Source: Datnioides undecimradiatus | Taxonomy: Eukaryota; Chordata; Actinopteri; Lobotiformes; Datnioididae | Length of the DNA: 64,000 bases | Assembly (NCBI GenBank): GCA_008933995.1 | Contig: WARS01000007.1 | Span: forward strand, 1,056,230-1,120,229 | Direction: 5' to 3' | Shown here: one piece after another, positions 9,701 to 31,200 of the stretch | Layout of the letters: each line of letters begins with the position of its first letter | Position numbering within the stretch: position 1 is the first letter of the stretch | Position numbers and translations under genes: made by a program | The notes under the pieces: model-generated | The model's database searches: none | Told to the model about the DNA's origin: nothing | What the model saw: the letters and a program-made list of their open reading frames with translations, nothing else

Positions 9701-12700
9701 CATATTAAAAAAATCAAGTCAATATATCAACTGTGGAAAACAAATCAGCAAATAAGGATTTTTCAGTTAGAGCTTTGCAAATAAATATGTCTTCTAGTCA
9801 ATGTAAAAAAAAAAAGGCACTGAAATACAAATTCATCCTCCACAACACCACCATCAACATAACACATTAACTTGGTTCCTCAGGAATACCTTCATATCTT
9901 CCCCCCTTCAGTTGGCAGCAGTAAAGAGCATAGTAAAGAGCAGAGATGCTGGATTCATTCTCATATATCGTTCTGTATATTCATTCTCTTTGATTTGAAT
10001 GCAATTTGTACAACTTTGGTTTTCCTGCACTACACTGACACTGCAAATTTAAATAAAATTCACATCAGAGAGAGAAAAACAGCAGCAACTTCATTCACTC
10101 GAAGATAACTATGCTTGATCCCAGTCAAAGATATTTTGGTCTGCTAAGTAACAAATAAGTAATAAACTCACAAACACTTAAAATGCACCTCACCGCTTGA
10201 TTCTGGGTGGCATTACAGCAGCAGGCGTCTTTACAGCCCCACACTAGCGCAACATGAAATGAGACTGGGCACAGTTTAAAGAGAAAATGTAATGAAAACT
10301 GAAAAACCTCAGGTCAGGACAATTTCATTTTGTTCATCACAGATGTCAGTCCTCTTCCTGCTGATTTAAAAGGAATTAAACCCCTCTATAAAACACATGG
10401 TTTCAGTAAAAACCAAACCAAAATAGGTACAAGATGGGGTTAGCTTAGAGGCGTTTTACATATTCATAAATAGCTGCTCTGTTCACGTTTTATGATGGGA
10501 ACTTTGTCATTAATGGTCAGATTCTCTTTACCACAACAGAAGCTCCAAATAGCCTACGAATCTCTCTGCTAACAACCCAACATCATCAGCATATAAGAAT
10601 ATACTAAATTTGATACTGTTCAAAGATTGGCTGGCTTAATTTCTTTTTCTATGATTCATATAGGCCATCATAATGTCCCATAATGTAGGGGTATAATGCA
10701 TCTCCTTGCTTCATTCCAAACAGAGCAGGAAAGAAGTCTTGAAATGATTAAACTATAAACAAGGAACTTGACCTTTGCATACATATGTACTAACTTGTAT
10801 TCTGCCTATTTCTGCCTATTAAAAACCAAATCGTTTAATGAAATCAATAAAACAGGCAAACATTACATATTAGTGGTGTCGGTATCAGCACCAAAAGGCC
10901 ATTTAGATGATGGAAATGTACAGTGTTTCACAACAGATCATCTACGTAGCTTTAATATCCATGCCTGCCCCACGTTAAGAGATGACATGACGGCCGATCA
11001 CTTATGTTGATTGTGACTCAGCTTGCAGATATGATAAATCACAAGGGTGGCAGCATCAGAGGACAAGTATGCACAGTCCTGTCTGGTTGGTTAGTTGGTT
11101 GGTTGGTTCACATAACTGTCATACTTCCACCAACGTCTCTTTGTGTGTCAAAGCTCAAAGTTAGCCGGAAAAACAGTTCTTAGAGGAAAAACAAAACAAA
11201 CCCAACGGATCCAAGAACGCCAGATACAATAGTTTGAACGCGTACAGCCAACCGCAATAACGTGCTTTGGATATATTAAAATGGGATAAACAATGGTAAA
11301 GCAACCAATCAATGATGGACGATGAATACAGATCTTTAAGTTGAGTAAAAGTGACTATGCCACAGTGCAAATATATAAAATGTACTTAATGTACCAAAAG
11401 AAAAAGTGGTCATCATGCAAAAAATATCAGTTTACAAACACACACACATATATATATATATGTTTTCTTGTGTGTGTGTGTGTGTGTTTGGATTATTACT
11501 GATGCATTCATCACTTTTATGTTGTATGTGGAGGTGAAGCTGTTTTTAAAGCTTTTATGTAGGAAAGAAAGAAGTGAAGCACAAGAACAAAATAGTTCAG
11601 CGCTTGAGTAAATGTGGTTACTTTCCACCACCACAACCAATGCAACAGTGTGATCTCTGGGTGTATCATCAGCCTTTCTTGGAAACCTAATCACTTTCTG
11701 TTGAGGTTGTTAAAGCTGATGGCTGTGTGAAACCTGTGCACAATAATGCTACGGGAGATGCTCACGTCTGGGGTTTGGAGTATCACACCTCTAAACTTTA
11801 CTTCCTCAAAAGACTTAATTTGCATTTGTGAGTAGCCCGTCATGGGACTACCAGGCCAACTTGAGAGGAAACGTGAGAAAGCGAAGGAGTCGTCAGAAAG
11901 AGAAAAAAGATACGAGATGAACTGAGATAACTAGATGGATGCAGGCAGGAGTGTGTGGAAGAGGAGCGTGCTGGGAGAGACCAAAAAGGCAGAAAGGTAT
12001 TTGTTGTCAAAAGGTTCCCGCAGAACTGCGTTCTTACCAAAAACTGTTCCCACACAGCAACACACATTTTCAAATCAAAGCTGTCATCACAGTCTCTGAG
12101 TCAGACTGTCATAAACTAAACCTGATCACCTGCACAGGAACTTAAATGTGAACTAAAGAAGACCTCCAAAATAGGAAAACGCTCCTCTGCTGTGTGTTTT
12201 CCCTGAGCACAGGGCCTGATCACACCACTGAAATAAACCACATTTTAAACTAGAAGAGGTTCTTGACTAACACACACTCTGTGTTTAATGTTTCTTTTAT
12301 TTCTTTCTTGTTTTATTGTACTAATTACACCCCACCCTTCACCATCTTGTTAAATAGCCCTGCATGCTATGGTAGTGAACCAAACCAATCCAAATATAAA
12401 TGCACACTTTTTATTTCATTATGGTTTTCCTTTGTGACTCAACGGGATCCGAGGATCACAAATCCTTTATTACAGGCATGAAAAGTTTATGGGTGTAAAT
12501 GTAAAAATGTCATTATTTAGAAACGTGAGTCAGCGGATGAGCCTGGTCGCTGATGGAAAAGTAGATCCATTTTTTTTTATCACTTATCACTTATCACTTA
12601 TCACTGACATTTGCATGATAAATGTCTCGTCGAAACTCTTTCCATTGCAGGTTGAGATGAAAAAGCTCTCAGCCCGGCTGCGCACGGCGCGCCACACCTG

Positions 12701-12878
12701 TCCTATTTGTGGACTTTGGAGGCAGACAGGTGAGGCTAAAGCCCCGCCCACTGCCAGGTTTCAGTCGGACTTGTTTTTAAGACCGGCTGTTGCTGTCAAA
12801 ACTCGGTTGTTCACGTTATTACACATTACTACACTAAGTTTGGGAGTAAGGACACACAGGTCCACAGCAGCAGCAAAC
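6777..12878. other. spacer between divergent tnks and cldn23
   Basis: The tnks promoter should lie just right of 6676, and the 5' flank or 5' UTR of cldn23 just left of 12879. In between I see AT-rich sequence (6860-7030), a (GTTCT)n run near 7568-7586, poly(A) at 9000-9011, an (AC)n-(AT)n-(GT)n block at 11436-11489 and a (CTTATCA)n run at about 12580-12605. A possible splice acceptor, TTTCCATTGCAG, ends at 12651 and could close a 5' UTR intron of cldn23. No coding gene is supported. Confidence 0.5.
11436..11489. repeat. compound microsatellite able to fold back
   Basis: An (AC)n run is followed by (AT)n, then TTTTC, then (GT)n ending GTTTG. The left CAAACACACACAC and the right GTGTGTGTGTTTG are reverse complements, so the block can form a hairpin. 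Confidence 0.85.
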
Positions 12879-13709
12879 ATGCCGAGGCGATCAACGCAGG
12901 AGTGGATCCGCTTATCAATGCGCACCCCGGGCATCCTCATCTTCGGGATGGTGCTGGCTCCCTGTGGCTGGGTCCTGGACCTGACCGCTACCGTGGCCCC
13001 AAACTGGAGGACCCTTAACAATGTCCCCAACACCCCACCAAGCGAGTTCATCCAGCAAGGCATCTGGGACATCTGCTTGGGCTCATCGACCAATGCGAAT
13101 GAGCAGTGCGGCCTGCAAGACACCCAGTATTTCAGTAACGGAATCATCACCGTCGCCCAGGGTTTGATGGTGGCCTCTTTGATCGTGACTATTCTCGGGC
13201 TGATCGTGGCCATCCCGGGAGTCCGCTGTTGGAAGGACCATCCTAACTGGACGGTGGCCGGCCTGGGCGGGCTGTTGATCTTCCTCTCGGGCGTCATGAC
13301 CATTATCCCCATTGCCTGGTACACCCACATCTTAACACAAATCACAACGGTAACTACGTCCACAGATATACGCGTCGGCTACTGCATCATCCTGGGCTAC
13401 ATCGGCGGGATATTTGAAATCCTGGCCGGCTTCGTCATGTTCATCGGGATCTGCCGTTGCTGCGGAGGGAAGAACAGAGGGGAGAGACGCGTCGAGGAGG
13501 TCATGGGTCCTCGGTTCAGCCACCAGAAGCCGCCACCAAGGCGGGTTGAAGTGCCAAGCCTGAACCGCGCCAGGAGCAACGCCAGCAGCAGCGTGCCGTA
13601 CTCCAGGGACTCCATCGATGAAGATGTGTCCTTCCCCCGGGCAAAGAGCCCCGCAGCACGGTCAGTCAACACCTCTTACAGCGGCAGGCCCTATGATGCT
13701 GACCTATGA
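12879..13709 (+). CDS. cldn23: claudin-23, intronless
   Basis: This is a four-pass tight-junction membrane protein. The start at 12879 (MPRRSTQEW, A at -3) gives 276 residues. A second in-frame ATG at 12918 gives MRTPGILIFGMVLAPCGW and 263 residues, which lines up with the N terminus of mammalian CLDN23 but has T at -3. Counting from that second Met, transmembrane segments lie at about 6-27, 77-99, 112-134 and 153-179. The first extracellular loop has the claudin signature: W at about 30, then GIW, then two Cys (C at about 53 and 64). The cytoplasmic tail is long and Ser/Pro/Arg-rich and ends YDADL, close to the C terminus I recall for mammalian CLDN23. CLDN23 is also near TNKS in human, which supports the call. 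The reading frame is open upstream to 12489, but nothing upstream looks like claudin. Confidence 0.93.
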   Translation: MPRRSTQEWIRLSMRTPGILIFGMVLAPCGWVLDLTATVAPNWRTLNNVPNTPPSEFIQQGIWDICLGSSTNANEQCGLQDTQYFSNGIITVAQGLMVASLIVTILGLIVAIPGVRCWKDHPNWTVAGLGGLLIFLSGVMTIIPIAWYTHILTQITTVTTSTDIRVGYCIILGYIGGIFEILAGFVMFIGICRCCGGKNRGERRVEEVMGPRFSHQKPPPRRVEVPSLNRARSNASSSVPYSRDSIDEDVSFPRAKSPAARSVNTSYSGRPYDADL

Positions 13710-14528
13710 GAGGCAACAGCTGGAAACCACAGTAGAAGGAAAACGACTTGAAGATGGACATTTTGCAAGAGGGACTAATAGTGGATAATATTCTAGGAAG
13801 AAACCATGGTATTTACACAGTGACGTCATAACAATACAGTCAAGTGTAGTAGAAGTGTAGTCATCTATAATCATCTGGAGTATTGTAGTAATAACATATG
13901 AGAAACTACCTTAAAGTAGCCAAGTCAGTGATATGATGTATGATGTGAATTAACACAGGACTGTTTCAGTGCAGGTACCAAAAGATCACACACATTATGA
14001 CATCCTGAAACTACTGTAAAGTCACTATGAGGTGAGGCAGAGTGACTTCAGACGCCTCTCTGGGTATGACAATGTTTCATCAGTGATACATGAAGGCAGG
14101 CGTCTATCACATGACAGAGGCATGGCCGCAGTTTCATGCAGCCACAGATGAAACTCATTGTGGTGATTAATGGCAACACCATCATAACACACGATAGGTG
14201 CCTCGAGCAGGACGGTGAAGCGTTCTGTATTATTGTGACAGCAAAACGGGGGGGGGGGGGAGAACGATGGCGAGTCGAAGTTTGTCTTTTCCATTCTGCA
14301 AATGATGCCGAGCTCTGTTTGTAAATAGTCATCCCTGAGGAAGTCTTCAGCCTTTTTTATCTCCATGCACCTTGTCTAATGCAGCAATCACTTTCTTTAT
14401 CTCTCCATTCTTATGTGAATACTGTATTCTCATGCACTTTACAATGGAGGCCTGCCTGTTGAAAGAAGCATCCTGAGGTGATCAATGTTTTTGTAACTGC
14501 TCTGTGATACAAGTGCTGTTTTATTAAA
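13710..14528 (+). other. cldn23: cldn23 3' UTR with poly(A) signal
   Basis: No coding signal follows the TGA at 13707-13709. An ATTAAA at 14523-14528, in TTTTATTAAATGTGC, is the first plausible poly(A) signal. A run of 13 G lies at 14248-14260. Confidence 0.55.
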
Positions 14529-17500
14529 TGTGCACTGTGTTTCCTATAAACAGACGACTAAGTGCCTTTCCTTAACTTAACTCTGGTTTGCTTTGGGTGA
14601 AAGTTAAAGGCAATATTCCAAAAAAACAGATTGCACTGCAGAAGTTATCGTGGATATTACTCAAACTGACATTAAGCTACATTCTGCAGGGACACCGTGG
14701 TGTTGGTCCACCTGTGCCACCCTGTCCGCTCAGTCATGAGTGTACAGACAATGTGGCCCAGCCGGTCTGACGGGTTGGTTTCTTTACGCATCTTGTCTGA
14801 CAACATTGCCTCCTCTGTTTGAACTGACCTAATGTCTCAAACAAGGCGGCACTGTAGTGAACAATTGTCCCTCTGCAGCTCCCGTTAAGCCTTTTGCAAT
14901 CACAATGTGGTTCTCCCTGTATGACCTGCTGAGTTAGGAACACCTTATAAAGCAAACGTTAGCCGTTTTGTGCCGATACAACTCAAGAAATCATATTTTG
15001 CATGACATCTATTGGGCCCTAATAGGTTAAATCTGTCATTAAAATGCATATTTTGTAAAGTCCTCAGTGACAGCTGTAATTTCGTGTAACCGGGGTGCAC
15101 TCACTGTACAGAGAAGGTCCCACTTAAACCAGTGCAATCATTAGTCTTCTGATGCTGATAGTAAACAAGACTTTGGCTCTGAAAGGGCTTGCGCTACTTC
15201 CTGCTGTCTCATTTCCTCCGAAGTGCTTCTACAGACTCACACAGCATGTGTCTCAGGTGAGTGACACCACCTCTGCTGTCAAACAGAAGAACATGTTTGA
15301 GAGAAGCTCTGTGTTTGGGATGCTCCAGGGTTCAAACACCTGTTTTATGAGACAGGTGCAAGTTTATTTTATTATACTACCGTAAAGTCTTCATGAAGAC
15401 ACTGTAATTGTTTTTATGCTTGTAATGAATCAGTTTGTACAGTGTCTGTAATCACATTTACCCTAACTGCAGGACAAAGCATCTGTAAGTCAGATCTAGA
15501 TGATGTTAGTCTTCATTAATTGCTCACTCCCCCAAAAAGCAAAATGGTGCATTTACTGGTTCTGCAGTTGAGCTGACCTCTAAAAGCACTGTCACCCCCC
15601 AAAAAACCTGCCACGTACTTGTACTGACTCACACAATGACGGTCCCAGATAGGCGGGTGAGGGAAAGGTGCTGCGTTCAGGGTGTGACAGTAGACAACGT
15701 CAGTTTTTATTTATAGTCTAATCGTCCCAGGTTGCACAAGAAGCTTTCTCCTACCTATGACCGGATACTTTTGTGATTTGGGTAACAAATATGCTGCGCT
15801 ATCACTTCCGAGAAAGAGTCCTGGATTACACAGTGACCCAGAGAGAGCACAGCGAGGAGTTCAGCACAGGAAAATGAGTATGTTACCCTGGTGATTCGGT
15901 AACACAGTGGCAAGTCATGAGCCTCGCAAGAGATAGACTGCGCAAATTGGTGCATGAGACACAGAAATAGCCTGACTTTTAAAGTCTAATATGAGCAGGG
16001 ACGTTATAGAAGAGACGGTGTTCAAATAAGCAATAACTGGCTGTCTCCATTAGGTTCAGCTGACTGAAACAGAGTGTAACAATCTGATATCATCCAAATG
16101 CTCTGGAAGGATGAGCTGATGGCATCATGATGCTCTGGACTGAACCATAAAAGAAGCTATCAGCCAATAAACCTGAAGCAGTTGGTCTCAGTAGGATGAC
16201 TAAGGCAAACTGAGCGAGAAGATAATACGATAGGGACAAAACACTCAGCTGAAGTAAATCATGCACATAAATTTGCATTAATTGATATTCTGCAGTGTTC
16301 TCGTCCCAGCTTCTTGAAGCAAAGTTTCCCTGTTCATTCAGATAAGAGTCTGGGTTTCTTCACAAGCTAGCCAGGGCCTACATTTCCCATAATGCAACCA
16401 GTAGGATTGAAATGCCCACATCTTTTAAAGTGCACTACCGGCTACCACAGGCTTTGTTGTCATCTTGTCAGCTGAGCTGTAACTAACAACAAAGCACCGC
16501 AGGTTGTTTGGACATCATTTCACTGTTCTTCCCTTTCTGCAAATCAAACGCGCGAATCGCGCTCATCAGCAGGAGATCAGGTGTTGACATGGTGTCGCCG
16601 CCGTGGCAGATCCTTCCTGTTCCTTATTGTGACAGATACATATTTTCACCCATAACAAACACTGTCGGTCAGCTCAGTTACAGCTGGGCTTACAGTAAAC
16701 ACTGAGGCTGATACTATCATGTCGCACGAACTCAGAAAGAGGTGCAGCAGTGATTTCCCAGCATATGTGTTGCACACACACACAAGCACACACACGAGCT
16801 GACAGCTGTCTGTTTTCACTGTTAGCACACACTGATATCCTCCAGCAGCTGGCAAGAGCAACTTGGTAATGATTTTAAAGTGACAAACCCATTAATCATT
16901 ATTAATAATTAGATTATACAGAGATGTTTATTATCAACTTGTGAAAGGTTAATGTGAATTACTATTATCAGACTAGGAAACAGCTGTAACGTAGCTGCAA
17001 ACAGCGAGTGCAAACAGTGACAAACTGATAGTGAAGTTAATATTCAGCATTCAAATCAATTCGCTCTGTGCAAATAATTCATGATAAAAGGAAAAGTCTT
17101 TAGTTCTCTGGCAATAAGCTGCGAAATCTTACCTGAGCTGCTGACCGAAACAAATGAAACGTCATAAAGTGACTTTATTTCAGTCAACATGAAGCAGTTG
17201 CTCAGCGGTTATACAGAAAAGTTTCAATCGGTTTCGGTTTTTGTACATTTTATTTGAAAGCTGGTGAACACACACTGCAGCGCATACCGTGCACAAAGCA
17301 TATGCACAGCAAAGCTACTGTGCAAAAAGTCAATTAGGTACAGTTTGCTCATGTTGAACAGTTTGCACTGTGATTGGCTGTGACAGAGAGTGACTGTATT
17401 ATCACATAAATCACACGTAACTGAATTAACCAGCTGATCGGCTTGACATTCCTCGCCACGAAAAAAACAAGATACTTCTTTCACGCAGAGAATAAACGTG

Positions 17501-18770
17501 CGTCAACCAGCCGAAACTAAAACCTGTGTGCACACCTTCCCAGATCCTGTTCAGCTTCATTTTTAAACTCCTCTCAACTCATCCTGGTTTGGCACAGTGA
17601 AGTTTAACTCGTATGCCAGACTGATGTCATTGTGTTTTGGCCCAATTATTCTTTTAAAATAGCTTGTGGTGTTTATTTTTAGCCCCTGCTCTTAAAAAGA
17701 CTATTACTTGTCTGTGCTGAATATAGCCTAGCATCAGTGTTTTTGTTAGCTCTTACATCCTGTTTCATGTTAGCTCTGCACAGAACTGGCTTTACAAATG
17801 CAGAACCAGTCTGTAGATAAACTGATTTGTCCTTCCACGGCCCTGCAATTGTCAGGGTTCTCTCTTCTTTAGGACTATGGGAGAAGTAGTAGATGAAAAT
17901 CAACTCAAAAATGTTTTTCTTGAGTCACTGTGGCACGTTGAATCAGATGTATATTTCTGAATTCATCAAATGTCTATATTTTCCATTATTGCGTCATCAC
18001 CTCCTCCAGAGAGGAGCGACAAACTGTTCAACCACTCACAATCTGTTTATATACAAAAAAGCACATTTTGCTAGATACATGCCTGACTACATCAATGAAT
18101 GTGTAATCCAGTAACACAAAACTCAGAGAGGAAGACAAGGAGAATATAAAATGACTTATCTGAGTCATATAAACATAGTTATTCACTCAGTAGTGTACAA
18201 CAGAAAGAGACAACAGCGTCTAACACTGGCTACATTCCTGAAATTAACTTAAGGTTGGGATTCCATAAAGACCGAATCATATAGAAGGAGCACTGCGTAG
18301 ATTTGATTTTGAGACAAGTACAGAGGTTTATTTGTGACACTGAGCATTACACAACTGACAAGAAACCCGGAGACGCCGCTGCACCTGTGAACTTAAACAT
18401 TCTGTCCTCGCCTCCTCTCAGAACTTTTCATGGAAATCGGACAGACCTCAAATCCCATTTAGAGAGCAGAGATAAAGAATGACAGTGATGTATTTTCGAT
18501 GGAGTCAAAACACGGATTCATCCCGAACAAACGCAACAGGAACCTCACAAGAGGCTAAAAGCAGCTAAACGTAGGAGGGACGGCGTGAAGAGATGGTAAC
18601 TACATAAAATGCATAAATGCTCATCTCTACGACAACAACGGAATAAAACCACATCACACAGGTTAAAGTGCATCCTGTCTGATCAAGGTCATCATCAAAA
18701 GTAATGGATTAAGTGTTAAACATCTCAGGTTTCAACCATCGTTTTAAGCCCCTCCTTTGCAGTTTTAGGA

Positions 18771-19097
18771 GTAATCTGTAGGATTTAGTGACATCTAGTG
18801 ATGAGACTGAATACTGCAACCAGCTGATTACCCCTCCACTCACCCTCAACCTCCAAGCAAGTAAGAGAAACTACTGAGGCTGTGAAAAACAGAAAGGCAG
18901 CACTGCAACATGGCAAACTCCAAGAATGGAAGTCACTCCGTATTTGGATATGAAAGGCTCTAAAGGATTCTTATCCAACAAAAACACAACAATTCTTATT
19001 TTCAGACGATAATACTCTACTAAAACAACAAAATCACAAACATTATATTCTATTTCTGCCATCAAATCCCCCAAACTCCTACAAACTGAACCTTTTA
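18771..19097. mobile_element. dispersed non-autonomous repeat common in percomorph fish
   Basis: The left end reads CTGTAGGATTTAGTGACATC and continues with TGCAACCAGCTGATTACCCC. The right end, read on the minus strand, starts AAAAGGTTCAGTTTGTAGGA and continues with GATGGCAGAAATAGAATATA. I recognise this wording as a high-copy short element of percomorph genomes. The two ends share an inverted TGTAGGA motif, which suggests a small DNA-transposon derivative. It encodes nothing. Family name and exact ends are not determined. Confidence 0.6.
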
Positions 19098-20075
19098 AAT
19101 GTGACAATCACTCACTGTCACTGAAGCACTGTCGCCTCTGCTTTCTCTGAAGCTACTGCTCTGTCAAGCAACTGACAGGTGGACATTTACACCATTTTGC
19201 TAAATGCAGCCGGCGTTAGAGAAAAAAAACAGTTTCTCTATGGAAACAAGCTTTGAGACACATCAAGGAAGTGGAATTAGATTAGAAGTACAGACAGATC
19301 CTAATAACTCTCCCCGTGCACTGTGCACAATATCATCATCAGTGGATCGTTTAGTCCATAAAGTTGCCCATGACACCAAGATGGTTTCACCTGACGTTGG
19401 GATGGATGGTTACTAATTTAGTTTACGTTTAATCGAAGATCATTAGCAATATGTAGCCACGCTAACTCATCAAAATTCTATAAATAACACTATGAATATT
19501 AAAGCAAACAAACAAAAACAAAATGAGTGAATTGCAGTTGCAATGCAAGCTGAAAACATGGAGTTGTTGCACTACATGGGAAAACAAGCAAATAAAGGCA
19601 GTCACTAACCCTCATTACTAAAGTGATGTTTTCACATATCAGTTCTCTATGAATGAATGGATATGCATATTTTTATAATTCTTTAACTCTTGTTGCATGC
19701 TGCAGGCGTAGAATTTGCAAACAGCACAGATTCCCTGTAATATGTCGCTGACTGATAAATACATTGTTACATCTGTTGAAGCTCTGTTCATCAGTTTGAG
19801 TTTTGTGCTGGTCAGTCGTTGAACCATGAGAGTAGTAGATCTGATTCCCTTGTAACAAAATTCATGTACCGTTCAGGGAACTGTGCTGCTGTAAGCTCGC
19901 TGCAGAGGAGTGCTGATGGAAGCTCAATTTCATCACTTGCCACAATCTCAAGGTCGACCTGGACGAGAACAAGAAAATGATTATTTTTGTTTTTGTGTCT
20001 AGTTTATGATGGCAGAAAAGTTTCCTGCCCCCACCTTAACACACATATTTAATTAGTCAGCAATAAGTGAATTAA

Positions 20076-20723
20076 AGGTACCCTGTGGAGTTTTTGACCA
20101 CTGGTGGTGCTGTTGAGCAATGTTTTGAAGAGCGGGGCCCGTGTTTTGTTTTGTTTGTTTTCGTGCACACACATGTGGTCGGTGCAATTCACACGCTACC
20201 ATCACCTGGACAGCTGGTGGCACTAACACACCAAAGCAAGTAGCAACATGTAAACAAAGCAAAGAAGAAGAAAAATGCTAGCAAGACAACTTGGAAAAAT
20301 GCTTTTGTGAGTGTTTAATCCGCGGGGAGGGGGGAATAAAAAGCAACGTGTCTGTTTGACCTGAATGCAACACAAAGCTTGTGTTGAAGCTTTTTGGTGA
20401 GAGGAACTCTGTGCAAACATAACTTTTTTTGTTTGTTGTGGTAGTGGGGTGTGGTTCAAGGTCAGCTGTGGGAGAGGGACGGGGAGTGGCTCACGGATGC
20501 AGCGCCGGGCACAGGCGTTTGTCATCAAACTAATTGCTCTCTCTGTCCTGCAGTAGCGGCTGGGTCTGGAGAAATATAAGAACTCGCTTCCAGGGAAGGG
20601 AGCTAGAACTGGACTGGCGTCTTGCACGGCCGGGCAGCACGCCGGAGATAAGCGTGTGTTGCTGCAGCATAAGACATTGACTGAGCAATAAAAAGAACAA
20701 TTCTGAGAGCGTGAACAACGTGC

Positions 20724-20754
<31 letters not shown>

Positions 20755-20814
20755 CGACGGCCGAGGAGCACTCATTGTTACATTTGTTTATAACGAAATT
20801 CACACAGGGCACCT
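20076..20814. mobile_element. 739-bp non-autonomous transposon flanked by TTAA
   Basis: The left end is AGGTACCCTGTG and the right end is CACAGGGCACCT, an inverted repeat matching at 11 of 12 positions. TTAA lies immediately outside both ends (20072-20075 and 20815-20818). The interior is non-coding and carries a (GT)n tract at 20729-20754. TTAA target duplication is the hallmark of piggyBac-type insertion, so a piggyBac-like MITE is the best guess; the terminal bases are not the usual piggyBac CCC. Confidence 0.7.
20729..20754. repeat. (GT)n microsatellite
   Basis: About 13 GT units inside the TTAA-flanked element. Confidence 0.95.
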
Positions 20815-21849
20815 TTAAGTATGATAGGTCCAGGAGTTAGTTTGTAATCATGAGGCGCTGGAACTGATGTTTGGTGTAGTAAAAAAATACTGAAAATAAA
20901 CAATGAAATGTAAACAAACCTCGATACGCTTAAGGAAAATAGGTTAATAACATTTCTCGCAAAATATGGATCATTTTGAAAATGGATATATTGAATATCT
21001 AAACCCCTACCTCAGGTATAGCAAACGTTTATCCTCCACTTCACACAGCAATGTTGCAGCCATGTTTTTCTGCAAGATGCTTCCTGTTGACAGCAGAGAA
21101 AACACAAATTTGATTTGTGGACATTTTCCTGTGCGGATGCAACTGGTGTTGTGTCTGCTGGTTGGCTGTATAACAGATGAACGTGCGTGCTCATGGTGAA
21201 CACATAGTAAATTCCATCACGCAGTAAAAGCAGACGCTCCAGACAGACAGCAGCTGCCTTTGTTGCTTATCTATGATTTCATTCTTTACAGATGACGTAT
21301 TTCTGTGATGACGTTTCTGTTGCTCTTTTGTTTCGTGTGTTTAGTCAAAGTGCCTATCGCTGCTATGTTATGTTATGTCCTGTTCTTCTCTGCAGGATGT
21401 CGTTAGCTTAGCATAAAAACAGGATTGGGGGGATACCAGCGTCGCTCCACTGGGGGAATTTCACTTTCAAATGTTGATCTTTGGATCCGGAGGAACTGTT
21501 TCACCATTAACACACATATACATCATGTTCCTTGCGCTGATGCGCTTTTAATTTACACCTGTGTTCAAAAATATACCAAACTCTAAATCTGATTAATATG
21601 TTATATATTGATTTTTAACCTCTACGCAAAACAGAAAAGTATTAGCCAAATACAATTGATGAGCACAGTTGTTGTCAACTAGCTGACTGGGTCAAGCTTC
21701 AGAGGTTTCACATCACAGCCGGGCACCCGTTTCCCTCTGTCATCATGCTAAGCTAGGCTAAACACATCCCGACTCCGAGGTTGATGTCTTTCTTCTCATC
21801 CCACTCAACAAAATCATTCAGTGGAAGGATGACTGAGACTTTACCGTAC

Positions 21850-22168
21850 CTGTTTCTTTTCTTCTGCTTCTGCCTCAGTTTGGCGAAGACGAAAGCCATG
21901 ATCAGCAGCCCGATGATGACGGCCAGCACACTCAAGGTCAGCGGCAAACTCAACGCCCCATTGACCGTGTCCTCGCAGGACTCGCCCCTGTAGCCAAGAT
22001 GGCAGTCGCACACGAATTCGGCGGCGCCACTGGGAGGAATCACGCAGATACCGCGGCCACTGCACCGAGTCTCTCCACAGGTGGGCAGGCTGAGGTTGAT
22101 GCCTCTTGGCTGAGGAGGAGGAACAGAGGTGGACATCGCAGAGGAAGGAGTGGAAGGGAGGGAGGGAA
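21850..22168 (-). CDS. orphan EGF-plus-transmembrane exon, copy of the LRP membrane-anchor exon
   Basis: Read on the minus strand this exon encodes a Pro/Ser-rich linker, one EGF module (C-ETRC-SGRGIC ... C-DCHLGYRGESC), a hydrophobic segment of about 23 residues (LSLPLTLSVLAVIIGLLIMA) and a basic stop-transfer run (KLRQKQKKRNR). The donor ACAG/GTACGG is in phase 2. A CAG/ acceptor at about 22108 gives phase 0; a more upstream AG at 22169-22170 gives phase 1 and a 319-nt exon. With the latter, phases 1 and 2 equal those of the membrane exon 27459-27780, and the proteins share C..xRC.G.G.C and GYRGE.C. If the donor is not used, the frame runs on to a stop at 21753. It may be an alternative anchor for the LRP, part of a second gene, or a relic; I could not find its partner exons with confidence. 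Confidence 0.55.
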
Positions 22169-25100
22169 CTCTGGACTATTAAGGTGATAAGTGGAGGGAG
22201 AACAGGAGAGGGGAGAGATGAATAGAAGGAAAGCCACACCCTCAAACACAATATGGAAGTGTGACAAAGTGTGGGAGAAGTGGACGTACTGAGGTCTGGC
22301 TCAGTCAAACCTGTCTGCAAGTGTCTTTAGCTGCCCTCCGTGAACTGAGCGGTAACTGACTGAAGTCCGGTCACACACCTGACTCGAAGAAGAACTCGTG
22401 TTTATTCCTGCAAACATTCAGTTTATCCCGTCTCCTTCCACACACTGAGGCGACTGGACCTCTTCCAGCTCAGAGGGCCAGCCCTCTGTGAAATTCCTCT
22501 AATGCCTCTAATGTCGTCAACGCTGGGAGCGCTCACTCTGTGTCAGTGGCTGAACTTCTGCCGCATTGTCCTAGCTAGGTGAGACTGAGCTCGAAACTGA
22601 TTTAAAGGGCAATTCCCGACTCCGGGGCAAAGGCATTTGATAAAATGAAGTTGATAAGATCTTCTATCCTGCGTGAGAAGCGTCACATTTCATGACTTTC
22701 TTTCTCCCTGTGGCGTTTTTAATATCATACATACGGTTTCATGCAGTTATTACATTTTAATAAGGCTGTGCTGCCTTCAGGTCCCTGGCAGAAGTGCTAA
22801 AACAACAGACTCTACTGAAAACCACAAAGTTCTGATCATTTCTACCACTCTTTGTGAAGAAAAGCATAAAATGTGTAGAGAGCGCAGCTCCATTGTCTAC
22901 TTTTTACAGTTTTCACTGCCCATAAGTAGAATGAAACTATGCTGTTTTGTTAAGGTCTCGCCTTCAAACACATTTTACTTTTAAATCATCACATACAAAT
23001 GACCGAAAGCATGTGATACCCTAGCTGCAGGGCTGCCGTCGCTGTAGGAAACAGTTTAGAGCCTTAAGACAAAACCAGCTGGAGTAAATGTAACACAAGT
23101 ACTCTTACATCAGGTATACAGAGTCTGAGCCTGGATCAAGTAAATAAATGCAGGTTAAAGGATAAAGCATTGCGTCAGTGAAGTTATAAGAGTAAAAACA
23201 GACAGAATGACACACTGGATGCATGAAGCAAAGCCTAATGAAAGCAAAAGCAGACTGTAACTCTTCTCTAAACACAGCTGCATCACAGCATCCTGTACCA
23301 CACGACACTGATGTGGAAAAGTCAGCGAGATGATAGAGACAAGACTGACCATTATCTAGCTGAACAGCGTGGCGGATTGACTGATAAATAAGTGGTGGTG
23401 GTACAGAGTTATCTTACTTCTCAAGCATCCCACCATTCAGGTTCCCCAACAACACTGAGTGTTGAGTTCAACACAGGCTTCAGGTCAGGAAATAAGTTTA
23501 GTTAAGAGCACAAAGTATGACAAAATGAACTGAATCTACTTACAAAGCAAAAGAGCGCAGACCCGGAGTGATTAAATGCAAGTGGAGTTCAGGTTCAGGT
23601 GTTCCAGGTGTTCGTGTGTGTGTGTGTGTGTGCTGAAGGTCCCTTTTAAAAAAGTATTTGAAGTTCCTCTCTCAGTGAGGGAATCTGGAAACAATAGGAA
23701 GCATGGGAGAGGAAGAAAGCTGAGACCTGTGAATACCTGCCTGTTTTTTTTCCCCATGAACACTCACACATGAAACCACCTCCTCCGCCCTCTGCCTTAT
23801 CTTTACATGGGCTGAGTCCTACACACACATGTTTGCTCACACCAAATATCTTTGACTCCGATGGAGCAACTTTACGTTTCAGAAGGAGCATTCAACAAAT
23901 CTTACGCTTCAGTTATCGCTGACTCACAAAAGTCAATGTCCCGGCATCGGTCAGGAAAAATACACTTCAGTTGCGCGGCACCTCTGTGTCTCAGTAAATA
24001 AACATGCAGTGCGTCAGATAAGGAAGAGCACAGGTAAATAAAATGTTCAAAATCACAGAGTACGACTTGAATTTGACTTTTCCTGAGATGTGACGGCTCA
24101 ATAGCAAACACATGTTCACACACACACACACTCCCTCGCCCTGGGGACTAATAAACTGAAATACAGCAAGTGTGTATGCCAGACTAGTTGGGGGGGAGGG
24201 GAGGGGAGGAGGAGGACGACGCAAGTTAGAACAAGACTCAGCTGGCAGGGCCTGACAAGACTGACATGTTTGTTTCATGTAGCAGTTCAGACATCAGTTG
24301 TGTTCAGTCATCAGCAGAGGCTTAAGGACATATTTCTAAGTCCTGGGAAGGGAACTAACCACTTGAGGCGTGACATGTTCAGTCTTAGTGGCGTGTCACT
24401 CCCACCATCATCGTTTAGCCCTAATTAGCGAATGTTAGCATGCTAACATGTTGAACTAAGATTTTCAAAAAAGGATGAAAACGAAACACGTCTCATTATT
24501 CCACACCCTTGTCTTCCTTGTTAAAACCTGGCACTCACGTTTACCCACGATGCATCATCTGTTCACAGTTGCTAACAAGTAAACTCTAGATTTTAATCCA
24601 GCCCTAGACGCACGCACTCCTGCACACCGCGGGTCTGTAGAGACCTGTTCCCATAAGTTTGTGCTATCTTTCATTATACCCCTTCATATTTCGTTTGTCT
24701 ATACTAAACTGCATCAATGTGTGCGCCCTGACTCAGCAGAAATACCTCAAATGTTTGCCTCCCATTAACATTTTCCCCTGGGAGGGGAAAAACAAAACAG
24801 TCCCTACAGTAAAACATGTGAACACAACCAACCACACCTGCATTTATACTGTGATGTAAGCTCAGATGCTTCTCCTGAGTGTCTGAGTTAACAGGGGAGT
24901 TCACTCCTGTCAGGTGTTGTGTAATTTAAAGATCGCCAGGCATGCATGTTGGACTCCATGCTTGTTTTGTCAGACTCCGGTGTGGGGCGGAGGCCGGAGA
25001 CACATGCGCAACCTCTGTAATGCATGAACACACATATGCTGACATACATGCGTAGATACACTCATGCACTGTGCAGTCCATTTTCATCATTACGACTTAA

Positions 25101-27253
25101 TGTATTTCATCTGATCTGCAGATCTGCAGTCTCATACTCATATGTCCGGGTGTTTATTTTGGTCAAGATAGTTTAACTTGCCGTTTCCTTTTCAGTAATT
25201 ATGGCTTTCATCGCCGTCTTTTTCAGTGAAGTGTGACGATGCATTGACTAAGCTGCAGTACTTGTATAAATGAAGGGATGCTATGGATGCTGTACAAATT
25301 GAATCTATTATATTTACTATTAATAGCATGTATAACTATTAAGAGCAGGTGTTCATCAAACACAAAGGTAAAGGCTGAGAGAATCATTTCTCTGCAGCTA
25401 TGAAGCAACATTATCGAGTTAAAGAAACAGCTGCATGGCTCAGTGAAACAAACACACACGAGGAATATTTGTGAATGAGGAACACTGCTGTCAGGACGCA
25501 ATGACAACCCAGATAATGATGTCACTTTTCATTTAGTTTCACTTTATCGCTACAAACAAAGTAAAAACCTGCATGCACAACTATCTCTAGGCTGACTTTA
25601 GCAGACAGGCAGGTGGAAGTACGTGAACAAAGAGGGCTCTCATAACAAAAATGTTTCTGTGGAAGCAAAACCTCACAGGGAAGCACCGTGTCAAAGCTCG
25701 TCATAAATCACAAAGGAGCCGCAGACTGTGACAAGATCCAAGTGCACATGTGGGAGAACTGTTGTTTCTATGTTGCTGTGTGATCAGACAGTGTGCCAAC
25801 TTGGAGAATCTCATCAAGATCAACAGGAACCAGTCTAACTATTCTCATGTGTCAACACAATTCTAGACAATAAGTAGAGACACACAAGCACCACTGTGAC
25901 AACACTGAAACAGGGTCACCTTGGTAGTAAGACATACAACATAACCTTAAATATAGTCGGCTGAAACATGAGCGATCATCAGAAGCTCCGAACAATGACG
26001 AGAGATTAAAGGTGGTGATCAAACTACCTCCGAGTTAAGACGCATGTTGGGAAAACATTTTACTAAGGTCTCCATGTAGACATGTATATTTGCTAGTATG
26101 TGTTTAGCTTTGTTGCTAATGTGACAATGTGTCGCGCTCACTGGCAGATGCAAAAAATGAGAAACTAGTTAGATACTCACTATTGTGTGTTTGGTCAAGC
26201 TCTCGAGTCATGTTCTGAAAAGTTAATTAGATCAATGACCTTAACAGCTTTGACGCACAGTTGCAGTCGGCCCCAGCTCGAGCCCCCAACATCCATCATC
26301 ATAGCAGCGATCAGGTATCCAGGTGTTAAGAAACCATGTTTTTATAAGCTAGAAACCCTTGAGACACGGCCTGTTTGCTCAATTAAGAGGCTAATAATTT
26401 AAAAATTAGCTGAAATGGTGAAACTGAGTGAAATGAAAGCTGTTCATCAAGAACAGATTAAAAACAGTCGGTCTGTTTTCGGTTTATTTCTTTATGATGC
26501 TAAAAGTCTCCATCAACATGTTTCATCAGCATCTCCAGACTGGTTACATTGACACTGCAGATACAATGCTACGGTCCACAGCAGCAGCCTGCAGCTGTTT
26601 ACTGCCACATTCCACAATACAGAACTATTAGAGCTGCAGTGAATTTAACGCTAGCGGGGGGTTCTTCACATCTACTGGGGACTCCAGCTCCTGGGGAGAG
26701 GGAAAAAAGAAAACATACATCTATGTATTTATAAAGACACACATCAATCTGAAGTCTGGCTAACTAACGCAGGCATATCCCATTCCCCATTGGATTTCAC
26801 CCTATTTAAAGAGGAATTAGACAAAGGCTAATTTAAAAATATACTCTACCCACTGTTGCAGGTGTAGAATCACCTCATTTAACACAAAAACAAGTTTACT
26901 CTGATATATTCACACAAAAATGTGTACAGGAGCTTAATTGCTGCTACTTTTAGAATTACATAAGATTGTGTTAATCCTTTAAAGACAAATCCATCCTGCC
27001 CCATTTAGTTCTGCACCTCTCTACCTGAAACACTGTCTAACTGCCAAAATATTATACAAGCCGGTTTTAGAAAGAAATGATACAGGAAATCAAAACAAAC
27101 ATCTGTAAATCAAAACAGCATTCTCATGTTAAGAGTTCCAGAAAGAAGTCTGACGACATTTTAATACTGTGGCTTGCCTCCATATTTGTGATATGTAACA
27201 TCATACTGCTGACTAGTGTTTTGGGAGTACCCGGACCGTTCAGCTGTGAACAT
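22169..27253. other. spacer between orphan exon and LRP stop; includes LRP 3' UTR
   Basis: No exon with recognisable domains is visible. The right part should be the LRP 3' UTR. On the minus strand an AATAAA lies at 26483-26488, about 770 nt after the stop. Short (GT)n (23618-23632) and (AC)n (24119-24130) tracts and a G-rich run at 24190-24210 are present. Confidence 0.45.
26483..26488 (-). terminator. lrp13: candidate poly(A) signal of the LRP gene
   Basis: AATAAA on the minus strand, about 770 nt downstream of the TGA at 27254. It is the clearest hexamer I found in that range, but no transcript end is known. Confidence 0.4.
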
Positions 27254-28207
27254 TCATCTGCTCAGGCCGGCAGGTTTCACCTCAGAGTCTGAATCGTAGT
27301 GCTCACACGGCAGACCCATGTTGGCCATCAGCGTTTCTTTCTCCACTGAGCGACTTCTCATGGACTCCCAGGCTCTCCTGAGGAAAGAGTTTAAAAAAAT
27401 GTCACCAAGTGACTCCACACGGCAACAAAAAGGACGGACCCCTCCTCGCGGTCGGTACCTTTTCACGAATATAAAAGCAGCAGCCGTCAGTAAAGCCACG
27501 AGGAAGAAGACACCAAGGATCAAAGCCACGTGGCTTCGCCCAGTGTCCGTCTCTTGACAGAACTCTCCCCTGTAACCAGCCGCACACTGGCAGCGAGTGA
27601 CTTTGCCTTCTGTGATGCAGTGGCCGTGACCGTGGCAGCGCTGGAGATCACAGGATGGGGAGCCTTTTCTCACCGACAGGACAGAGTTCTTGTTGGCGTC
27701 GGGTCGAGGCTGTGAGGGGGACTGGGGAGGGCGGACGTCACCGGCTTTGGTGCCAGAGGAAGCAGAGTTTGTGTTTGGACCTGAGGAGAAAGTCTGAGTG
27801 TTCATCTCGTTTCTGCACACAAGGAGCGACCTCACCATCACCAGAGGGGCGAGCGGTGCCAGCCCAGAAAACAATCTGCCAGTTAACACCATGATTCAAA
27901 TGAGATCAGCACTTCATTACTGCTCTTCCTTTTCATGAGTGGGGGAAATCAGAGTTTGGGTTAAACTCACAGCCCTGTTCGTCTGACTGGTCCTGACAGT
28001 CCACGTGTCCGTCACAGAACCTCCTGCTGCTGATGCACTTGCTACCGTCAAAGCAGTATTCTTCCCCAGATGGGCAGTCGGGGAGGGGGGCGCAGGAAGT
28101 GTCATTGAGAGCAAAGAAGCCCCGGCCACATTTACACGTCCGACCGCCAGGATAGGCCAGACACAGGTGGACGCATCCGCCATTGTTTTTAGAGCAGCTG
28201 TTAGTTC
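27254..28207 (-). other. lrp13: LRP exons 38-40: EGF, LDLa, EGF, transmembrane segment, tail
   Basis: Exon 27971-28207 holds EGF plus the last LDLa ([16 protein letters not shown], whose last Cys is split across the junction). Exon 27459-27780 holds a Pro/Ser linker, an EGF and the membrane span [20 protein letters not shown]. An 81-nt intron follows, then the last exon. The tail after the span is about 43 residues, with [12 protein letters not shown] and [10 protein letters not shown]. It has no NPxY motif. EKETLM fits an acidic dileucine-like signal and YDSDSE has acidic residues around a Tyr and two Ser, so internalisation may use these instead. Confidence 0.85.
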
Positions 28208-31200
28208 CTGGAGGATGTCGGTAAGAGAGGATTAGTAAATGACAAACTCACTGTGTCTGAGAGGAAGTGAGGTGGGTTCACACTTAAAGCAAGCTGTTAT
28301 AACTCACACTACTACTGAGTAATGGGAGTTATAGCAGTGATGCACACCAGAAGATGGAAAAGCTGCGTCAGACCTCCTCCTCACATGTCAATCACTCTGT
28401 TCTGGCTGTGAACACTAATCAGAGCCTCCTGGCTGTTTGCACTGACAATCTGCATTGGCAGTGGGAGCACCCTGCAGTGCCAGATGGAGAAAACAAGCTT
28501 GGGGTGAGTCCAGGAAATGTGAAACAGAGGTGTGTCGACATTCATCCATGAATAATTATGAAAGGACATCGCGATTCATGATGTGAATAATACTGCTGCC
28601 TCTGTGTGGATAGATGTGTATATCCAGCTTCTGTTGGACATGTATGTTTATGACAGTGACAAACTGATCTCACACACACACACACACACCCTTAATTAGC
28701 AGCATCACCTGCCAGCAACTGTTGTTTAATCAGCAAACACACACACGTGCAAGAGTTGTTTCAGTACCTTCAGAGTCCAGTAAGCTCACTGCGGTGCTTC
28801 ACTGCTAATTTAACAGATTGTGTTTGCAGAATTTAATGCAAGTGAAACCCCACAAACCCCAGCGACTGTCTTCGGTATGTGCGACACAGCAAACTAACAA
28901 ACATTTGCTTAGACCTGTGTGACAGGTCAAGGCGTGCGTAAGAGGGTGTGCTGTCCAAGTGTGTGTGTGTGGGTGTGTTGAGCTCAATTCACCACTGCAG
29001 TTTCCCACTGCAGCACACACAGTGTACCAGGCCAGGATCTCCCACAGCTTGCCAAACCCCATCTCTGTGCAGGTATCACATCACCCTGCCATCTATTCAA
29101 CTATTCAGCTCAAACAGAGCCTGGGTGACTCTTTTCATGCTGCTCCGAGTGTGTGATACCACACATTTGCTGCTCCCTGCAGGAAGAGTCGGTGTCAAAG
29201 TCACAGCGAGCAGATGGCCTAAATCCTGATTTGCTACGGGGAAACTGGTTGGACGGGCTGAGTTCTACAATTAGGCTGGTAGTGGTGCTGCAAGCCTGTT
29301 GGACAGCGTTACAAACCTGGGCAGGAATCGTGCAGCACGATGTGAGGAGGATTTCAGTGCTGATGAGACTCTCATGCATCAGAACAATCAAGCCCTCTGA
29401 CTGACCTACAGATGGAACTTGTTTTTGTCTGATCTGAAGTCGCTCATTTTGCTTCATGTTATTTTAAACTAGGATTCATTTCTCCTGTGGTTTCATTTCT
29501 TGATTTGTACCATGGTGACACCTGCTCTCCAGACTGCCATCTAGTACATACAGTGCACAGATAACAGAGGGAAGCCAGCAGCGAAGCAAACTGAAGGCTG
29601 TTGGCCTGTTACCGGCCTGAAAGCTGTTATTTTCCTGCATATTTGTTCTACTGAAGTTCACCTGAACGCCTCTCTTATGCAGGTTGTACTGTACTTTGAA
29701 CTAAACCTGCAGGGCTGAAGAAGTTACCCACCAGACTGGCTGTTGCTGCTGTAGGCTCTGACCTGCGTCAGGCTGGTCTTTGTCTCAAACCACAGTTGGT
29801 TGGGCTGGAGACCGTCACCGAACCACAGTTTGGTTACATCTACGGAGTTTGGAAAAACACACAGAGGAAAACTCAAGAAAGCTACTCTCAGACAAGGCAG
29901 AGCAGTTTGCTACAGAGCAGCTGACTGAATAATTCATTGTTCCACTGGTGTGTGATGCCATCTGCTGCCTGAAACAGACTGAGGAGAGAGAGAAGTGAGA
30001 GAAATGAAATGGCACAAGCAGAACTCAACAGGTTGGTGGAGTGCAACAGGAAGAATACATCGAGCCCTTAGACTTCCCTGAAGGTCAGTGAGTGTCCGAC
30101 TCTTCAAACTGGGGTGTTGCTAAACACAAACAGTGCTTCCATCTTTACCTTTGTCCAGAGTGACCCAGAGGAGGATGTCCTCAGTATGCGTGAGGGACAT
30201 GAGCAGACCTGAGCCTGTTTTGTACTGTTTATATCCCGTCCCATCCACTCCAATAGAGCCGATTACACCTTCGCCTGGACAGAGAGTGATCGGGTGCACT
30301 CAGGCTGGTGGAGACAACTACATGTTGTTTATATTTAACTTTGTCTCTTTATCTAACCTGTGTCAGCCCAGTAGATCGTAGTTCCTTGATTGGAGAAGAC
30401 CAGCGAGGTGGGGACGCTCGACTTCCTCCACAGCACAGCTTTGTTACGTCCGTCCATCCAGGCACAGTCCACCTCTGCCTGGCTCTTCCCACTCGCCGCG
30501 ATGATTGCTGTGTAGCAAAGTCGTCCTGAGGGGGGGTGCAGCGCAATGGACGTGGTTCCCTGAGAAGGACGAGTGAGACCTGGGGTAAATGAATCTTTAA
30601 AGTAAGAGGTTAAACATCTTTGAGGTTCTAGAGGTTTCGCCCAACTTTTATACAATTAAAGACTTCGCTCCTGCACCTTCAGCGACCCCTGCAGCAGTGA
30701 GATGGTGTAGCCATCATGGCGGGAGCTCACATGGAGGTCAGGTCTCTCAGCGCTGCTCCAGTAGAGGTTGGAGGTCACCCAGTCGACTGCTAGAGCCATT
30801 ACCAAATCATCCTTGTGGAGGAGGAGAGGTTTAGTTTCCAGAATTAGTTTCCACAGCAAGAAAAAAGCTATTTTAAAAGCAGAGGAAGGAGGCAACAAAT
30901 ATAAACAGGAAATATCAAAACATCAGAACATTTGAGTGTCAATAAAAATAGCCTGAAAACATGGAAAACAAAGCTCTTTATGGCCTTAAATGATATTTTT
31001 GCCAGGATGTGAATACCTGTCATTTCCCCTGAAAAGCGGCTTATGCCTACCTTCAGTTTTAGGATTTGCCCCAAAGGTGTGAGTCCCTGTCTCGACCTGG
31101 AGCTGCTCAGTTTCAGCACCTCTACGGTTCCTTGTCCCGCATCAGCTATGTACACAGAAAGCTCCCAGACGGAGATGTCCAGTCCCGACGCCTCCGTCAC

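Follow-up and report, generated by a model that had tools for sequence, protein, structure and literature searches.

An intact EGF and membrane-anchor exon of LRP13 type beyond the last exon of an LRP gene in Datnioides undecimradiatus

The window analysed here, a stretch of 64,000 nucleotides from Datnioides undecimradiatus (contig C464:1056230-1120229), carries on its minus strand an LRP gene that ends at 26.6 kb and, beyond this gene, an exon at 22109-21850 in which an EGF module and a membrane anchor are intact. Judged by its sequence, this appears to be a genuine protein-coding exon and can soundly be placed in the teleost LRP13 family, whose membrane-anchor exon is then present three times, namely here, as exon 39 of the LRP gene and in lrp13 on contig C328. 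With a probability of just under one half (about 0.48), the exon serves a separate, stripped-down transcription unit of the LRP13 family; this reading was favoured over an orphan relic, an alternative last exon of the LRP gene and the end of a larger, unseen gene. LRP13-type receptors are proposed as vitellogenin receptors of fish oocytes, and a free-standing conserved anchor exon would either belong to an unannotated small membrane protein tied to this family or illustrate cleanly how a gene can shrink to a single exon.

Structure and homology of the anchor exon

The following features are needed for the analysis:
21850-22109, minus strand: EGF and transmembrane exon, PRGINLSLPTCGETRC...FVFAKLRQKQKKRN; phase 0 in and phase 2 out as best supported
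21753-21849, minus strand: donor GTACGG and start of the intron, donor score 3.41; read unspliced, the frame adds about 31 residues before it meets the stop at 21753-21755
22110-22168, minus strand: stretch taken for a Pro/Ser linker in the earlier note, more probably the polypyrimidine tract in front of the acceptor at 22109; in-frame ATG at 22136
27459-27780, minus strand: LRP exon 39, the homologous EGF and transmembrane exon; phase 1 in and phase 2 out
27971-28207, minus strand: LRP exon 38, with an LDLa module at its end; the codon of the last LDLa Cys is split between this exon and exon 39 (T|GT)
26628-27377, minus strand: the tail of the LRP model, made up of exon 40 (27377-27281) and the stop-bearing exon 41 (26690-26628)

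The exon at 22109-21850 encodes one six-cysteine EGF module (C-x4-C-x5-C-x11-C-x-C-x8-C), followed by a membrane span and a basic run (KLRQKQKKRN). The minus frame is open from 22175 down to the stop at 21753-21755, and the order of linker, EGF module, span and basic run described in an earlier note on this DNA was borne out, with 22168-21850 open in the frame assumed there. Exon scores were calculated with our own simple gene finder, which used codon usage and splice matrices and was retrained on 4171 codons from predicted genes; the splice scores come from simple matrices, with which true acceptors may score low. The anchor exon reached a score of 28.0 (codons 20.8, acceptor 3.8, donor 3.4) and was the top-scoring exon on either strand between the LRP and claudin genes (13.8-26.6 kb), against 6.0 and 4.0 for the next minus-strand candidates in 13.8-22.2 kb and 22.1-26.6 kb, respectively. 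The best plus-strand score (14.5) was the shadow of the same exon, and the next plus-strand candidate scored 5.9. In a 6 kb stretch of the LRP gene used as positive control, the exons scored between 6.2 and 25.7, and a single false candidate (7.5) fell within this range. Only 0.44% of 4320 minus-strand GT sites score as high as the donor at 21849, and the gene finder additionally offered a single-exon model (22136-21753, minus strand) that covers the anchor exon unspliced.

A protein search of the genome (581 Mb, 497 contigs) gave three of 30 scored candidates at E<=0.001, namely the exon's own locus, LRP exon 39 at E 2e-7 and, on contig C328, lrp13 at E 6e-7. The homology to LRP exon 39 implied by the earlier note holds, with a protein score of 135.5 compared to a maximum of 58 in 1000 shuffles. 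Over the 65 EGF-transmembrane columns common to all three exons, identity was 37% with LRP exon 39 and 29% with lrp13. An alignment that included the linkers (scores 135.5, 140.0 and 103.5) had placed the exon nearer to both paralogs than the paralogs are to each other; this was dropped, as on the 65 columns its branch equals that of LRP. An LRP13-type anchor exon was taken to combine a six-cysteine EGF module, a span, a basic run and LRP13-type closest relatives in the genome, all of which were found, with a phase 2 exit after AG, which 22109-21850 likewise has, and with a phase 1 entry at which GT or GC completes an LDLa Cys. The best acceptor enters in phase 0 instead; a start at 22168 gives T|TT, and the weak site at 22102 would provide such an entry.

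EGF modules of the EGFR-ligand type have seven residues between the first two cysteines; with four residues at this place, the module was not assigned to that family. A PDB search with the anchor exon returned general EGF matches (best E 0.0037). Pattern matches in a prokaryote contig collection (593) and in a virus contig collection (61) yielded no confirmed relative, and among the matches listed in a literature search on lrp13 paralogs, tandem copies and splice variants, the titles and abstracts held nothing on this locus or exon.

The LRP gene was modelled with 41 exons and 2282 residues; the model is provisional, its 5′ end and a few short internal exons being uncertain. It is collinear with the gene on C328, with 37% identity in an alignment of 1296 columns that reaches the C-terminus. 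Beside the C328 gene lies a RING/CHY gene which, by its sequence, we take to be rchy1. Because an eel study reports that rchy1 and lrp13 adjoin in all the species it compared (PMC9935665), lrp13 proper is the most likely identity of the C328 gene, which would make the LRP gene of the window a second LRP13-type gene. For Takifugu rubripes, two lrp13 genes located on different chromosomes are reported and ascribed to the teleost genome duplication (PMC11772764). The tail of lrp13, which was read by eye from the DNA, and that of the LRP gene have the same layout, an exon with phase 2 in and 0 out and then a short last exon. Both tails (C328, about 18.483 Mb; 27377-26628 in the window) share a KETxM stretch, and no NPxY motif was seen in either. 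Elsewhere in the LRP model, two LDLa exons on the minus strand (37795-37547 and 37052-36806) are identical at 236 of 242 aligned bases, which suggests that a part of the ligand-binding region was recently duplicated in tandem; the match between the exons preceding them (38054-37908 and 37361-37134, minus strand) is 81 of 118.

Splice sites, phases and the relation to the LRP gene

The exit in phase 2 is common to 22109-21850, LRP exon 39 and the lrp13 anchor exon, and this half of the phase match (1 in, 2 out) put forward in the earlier note stands. The other half, entry in phase 1, is not supported: the AG at 22169-22170 (exon start 22168) scores -6.38, and 80.6% of 4273 minus-strand AG sites score at least that. 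The acceptor at 22109 scores 3.76, lies in the top 0.3% of the AG sites of the strand and gives entry in phase 0, and the alternative exon start proposed at 22107 was replaced by 22109 as the first exon base. Altogether six AG sites are present between 22175 and 22102, with scores of 0.17 at 22175 (phase 0), -1.28 at 22170 (phase 2), -6.38 at 22168 (phase 1), 3.76 at 22109 (phase 0), -2.25 at 22104 (phase 2) and -2.75 at 22102 (phase 1). All 40 acceptors of the LRP model score between -0.59 and 5.86, so that 22168 and 22102 fall below every one of them, the lower end of this range reflecting the cut-off of -1 with which the model picked its acceptors. The acceptor of the lrp13 anchor exon scores -0.27.

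The stretch between 22168 and 22110 is best read as the polypyrimidine tract of the strong acceptor at 22109 and not as a Pro/Ser linker, because pyrimidines make up 84.7% of its 59 nt (a richness that 0.02% of 59-nt windows reach), because it has no AG except its last two bases, and because it is closely preceded by the branch-point-like motifs CTTAT at -82 and TTAAT at -73. The coding linkers of the two paralogs, in comparison, are 58.9% and 54.7% pyrimidine. Read as coding, the stretch does align well to the linkers of the paralogs, but Pro, Ser and Leu are mostly what pyrimidine-rich DNA encodes, and the coding reading was rejected. An unspliced transcript starting at the ATG at 22136 might conceivably still translate half of it. 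The case shows how a polypyrimidine tract, once translated in frame, can be mistaken for a Pro/Ser linker and lead to a phase match that is false.

These splice sites bear on the proposal that the exon is a mutually exclusive alternative to LRP exon 39, which is disfavoured. The LRP exon 38 exits in phase 1 whereas the strong acceptor is in phase 0, the phase-1 acceptor that had been offered is very poor (-6.38) and would turn the LDLa Cys into Phe, and both the last exon of the LRP gene and an AATAAA at 26488 come before the anchor exon on the minus strand. In LRP and lrp13 alike, the LDLa exon exits in phase 1 and the anchor exon starts with GT, the last Cys being T|GT; the joining of exon 38 to 22168 yields phenylalanine (T|TT) at this position. 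According to PMC9741552, terminal exons cannot take part in strict mutually exclusive splicing. Measured against tandem duplicated exons, the two exons are homologous and equal in exit phase, and their entry phases are unequal at the strong acceptor.

A looser version, in which LRP exons 1-38 are joined via 22102 or 22168 to give an isoform with an alternative last exon, another anchor and another tail, is unlikely. Domain order and exit phase are those of LRP exon 39, entry at 22102 is in phase 1 and restores the LDLa Cys as T|GC, and the substitution of homologous exons is a known class of splicing (PMC9741552). Both phase-1 acceptors are, however, poorer than every acceptor of the LRP model, 22102 being a weak site 7 nt behind the strong one, which is in phase 0, and LRP exons 39-41 together with the AATAAA past the last of these would have to be bypassed. 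Membership in the LDL receptor family, which takes LDLa and YWTD modules together, would follow if the exon did belong to an LRP isoform; the exon by itself lacks this combination. The family is further marked by an internalisation motif in the cytoplasmic tail; for the anchor exon, the searches described below brought up only weak tail candidates. A junction of LRP exon 40 (phase 0 out) to 22109 was also considered; the phases fit, but a second EGF module would then sit in the cytosol, and this junction was rejected.

Further exons, constraint and the favoured explanation

The neighbours of the LRP gene were identified by Pfam as a TGF-beta family gene on the plus strand, presumably nodal-like, and an ankyrin-repeat gene on the minus strand below 6.7 kb, which we take to be tankyrase. 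A claudin-family gene, apparently one large coding exon, lies at 12918-13660 on the plus strand (PF00822, E 2.3e-19). For the search of the interval 6901-26560 by tblastn, the LRP and lrp13 models were used as queries, the latter without the 5′ part of the gene, with a doubtful extension after the tail and with a neighbouring RNA-binding-protein model appended. The two queries matched the anchor exon with E 1.6e-10 and 6e-10 and another EGF module of lrp13 matched it with E 0.21; everywhere else in 6901-26560 both models, the 5′-incomplete lrp13 query included, gave E 1.0 or worse. Pfam searches of translated frames, with stops as X, detected only the EGF module in minus 16001-25940 and LRP domains only in minus 25601-28220; no domain was detected in minus 6901-13700, minus 13701-16300, plus 13701-23640 or plus 23641-26600. 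By both methods, no LDLa repeat or YWTD propeller was found in 6901-26560 outside the LRP gene.

In 22110-26620, no convincing upstream exon came up that would combine a signal peptide with a donor in phase 0, and among 71 candidates for a tail exon none stands out. The following two candidates are weak:
22379-22417, minus strand: MFAGINTSSSSSQ, a candidate first exon that lacks a signal peptide; phase 0 out
19862-19958, minus strand: candidate tail exon, phase 2 in, RSTLRLWQVMKLSFHQHSSAASLQQHSSLNGT and stop; strong acceptor (4.1), coding score -3.0

Among the ATG frames scanned in 22110-26620, the former alone has a phase-0 donor that scores above 2.5, namely 3.9. The latter ranked ninth of 71 and scored 22 and 15 against the two LRP tails, which is below background. 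The search with both LRP tails performed no better than the opposite-strand control, and a homologous tail could be missed by it, as even the two genuine LRP tails reach no more than 33 when compared with one another, while controls went as high as 35 and 32. A promoter scan of 22000-22400 was empty; its models are those of bacterial promoters, so that it is uninformative for this fish locus.

Entry in phase 0 demands a coding exon upstream, and the exon might accordingly belong to the last exons of a larger gene, the ectodomain of which (mucin-like, for example) escapes scoring through low complexity or the upstream exons of which lie beyond the examined stretch. Low-complexity ectodomains are indeed hard to detect, but the best other upstream exon in 22110-26600 scores only 4.0 and the minus strand beyond 26.6 kb is occupied by LRP, which makes a larger gene very improbable.

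The pattern of substitution points to coding constraint. Identical bases between the anchor exon and LRP exon 39 were counted at 34, 36 and 28 of 65 sites for codon positions 1, 2 and 3 (shuffled means 17.6, 16.9 and 19.2), between the anchor exon and lrp13 at 33, 37 and 20 (18.7, 17.5 and 20.3), and between LRP exon 39 and lrp13 at 34, 31 and 23 (18.1, 16.8 and 18.1). Positions 1 and 2 of the anchor exon are thereby about 4 to 5 standard deviations above shuffled pairing against both paralogs, while position 3 is at expectation against lrp13 (20 vs 20.3) and above it against LRP (28 vs 19.2, sd 3.4). The Kimura branch lengths on the 65 columns were 0.62 for the anchor exon, 0.62 for LRP exon 39 and 1.03 for lrp13. 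Since the anchor exon had the shortest branch in only 42% of 2000 bootstraps, a constraint equal to that on LRP exon 39, and not a stronger one, is the fair reading of these sequences, as a point estimate only. In neutral simulations that took the exon in its present form as their starting point, with 4000 runs for each distance and 10% indels per substitution, the open frame, all six cysteines and the span survived in 16% of runs at 0.05 substitutions per site, in 3.6% at 0.1, in 0.4% at 0.2 and in 0 of 4000 at 0.5. Therefore, the anchor exon has been constrained as coding sequence during most of its own history, with a pattern like that between two intact genes; a recent loss of function is still compatible with these figures, and past constraint is no proof of present use.

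Such a recent loss is at the centre of the most serious competing explanation, which is possible though less probable than a separate unit: one or a few recent deletions would have removed all the other exons of a tandem LRP13-family copy, and the anchor exon, as yet undecayed, would no longer be made into protein. The earlier note had named the only remnant of a tandem LRP copy as an option, and as to origin this is compatible with the finding of no other LRP remnant in 6901-26560; the exon itself, however, is undecayed. The exon lies directly downstream of an LRP gene in the same orientation, is closer to LRP exon 39 than to lrp13 on the 65 columns, and retains some third-position similarity to the former; moreover, the searches for 5′ and tail exons gave nothing convincing. 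Against a relic stand two excellent splice sites, the low neutral survival of all features even at 0.05 and 0.1 substitutions per site, and the contrast between a fully intact exon and an interval in which no other trace of LRP was detected.

The separate reduced unit is preferred. Its anchor exon would be entered at 22109 in phase 0 and would for this reason not be swapped for LRP exon 39. The unit would make a protein with a tail of its own, in which the membrane anchor bears a short ectodomain hardly larger than a single EGF module. At the cell surface, such a small EGF-module protein may serve its full-length relatives as a co-receptor or decoy, for example; lacking LDLa and YWTD modules, it would not be an endocytosis receptor for lipoproteins. 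A more specific scenario, rather doubtful as it stands, is that an LRP13-family gene was stripped to its juxtamembrane EGF-transmembrane exon, that a new phase-0 5′ exon then captured this exon, and that the two now yield a tiny membrane protein modulating the full-length vitellogenin-receptor-like proteins encoded nearby.

Comparison with known systems

Events of tandem duplicated exon substitution resemble the present case in that two homologous exons lie in tandem near one gene. They differ in that here the second copy is past the last exon, the best entry phase is not the same and no downstream exon can be shared. The LRP gene of the window, unlike the anchor exon, is a complete receptor with its own tail exons and AATAAA and with entry in phase 1; the two have in common the 37% identical EGF-transmembrane region, the order of the modules, the exit phase and the strand, and they are 4.5 kb apart. 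The exon of lrp13, the teleost vitellogenin-binding receptor (C328, about 18.4836-18.4840 Mb, beside the rchy1-like gene), differs by its entry in phase 1 (T|GT), its long coding linker and its position after an LDLa exon, whereas 22109-21850 is best entered in phase 0 and had no LDLa or YWTD exons detected around it. The homology of the EGF-transmembrane region, the phase 2 exit after AG and the basic stop-transfer run are shared by both.
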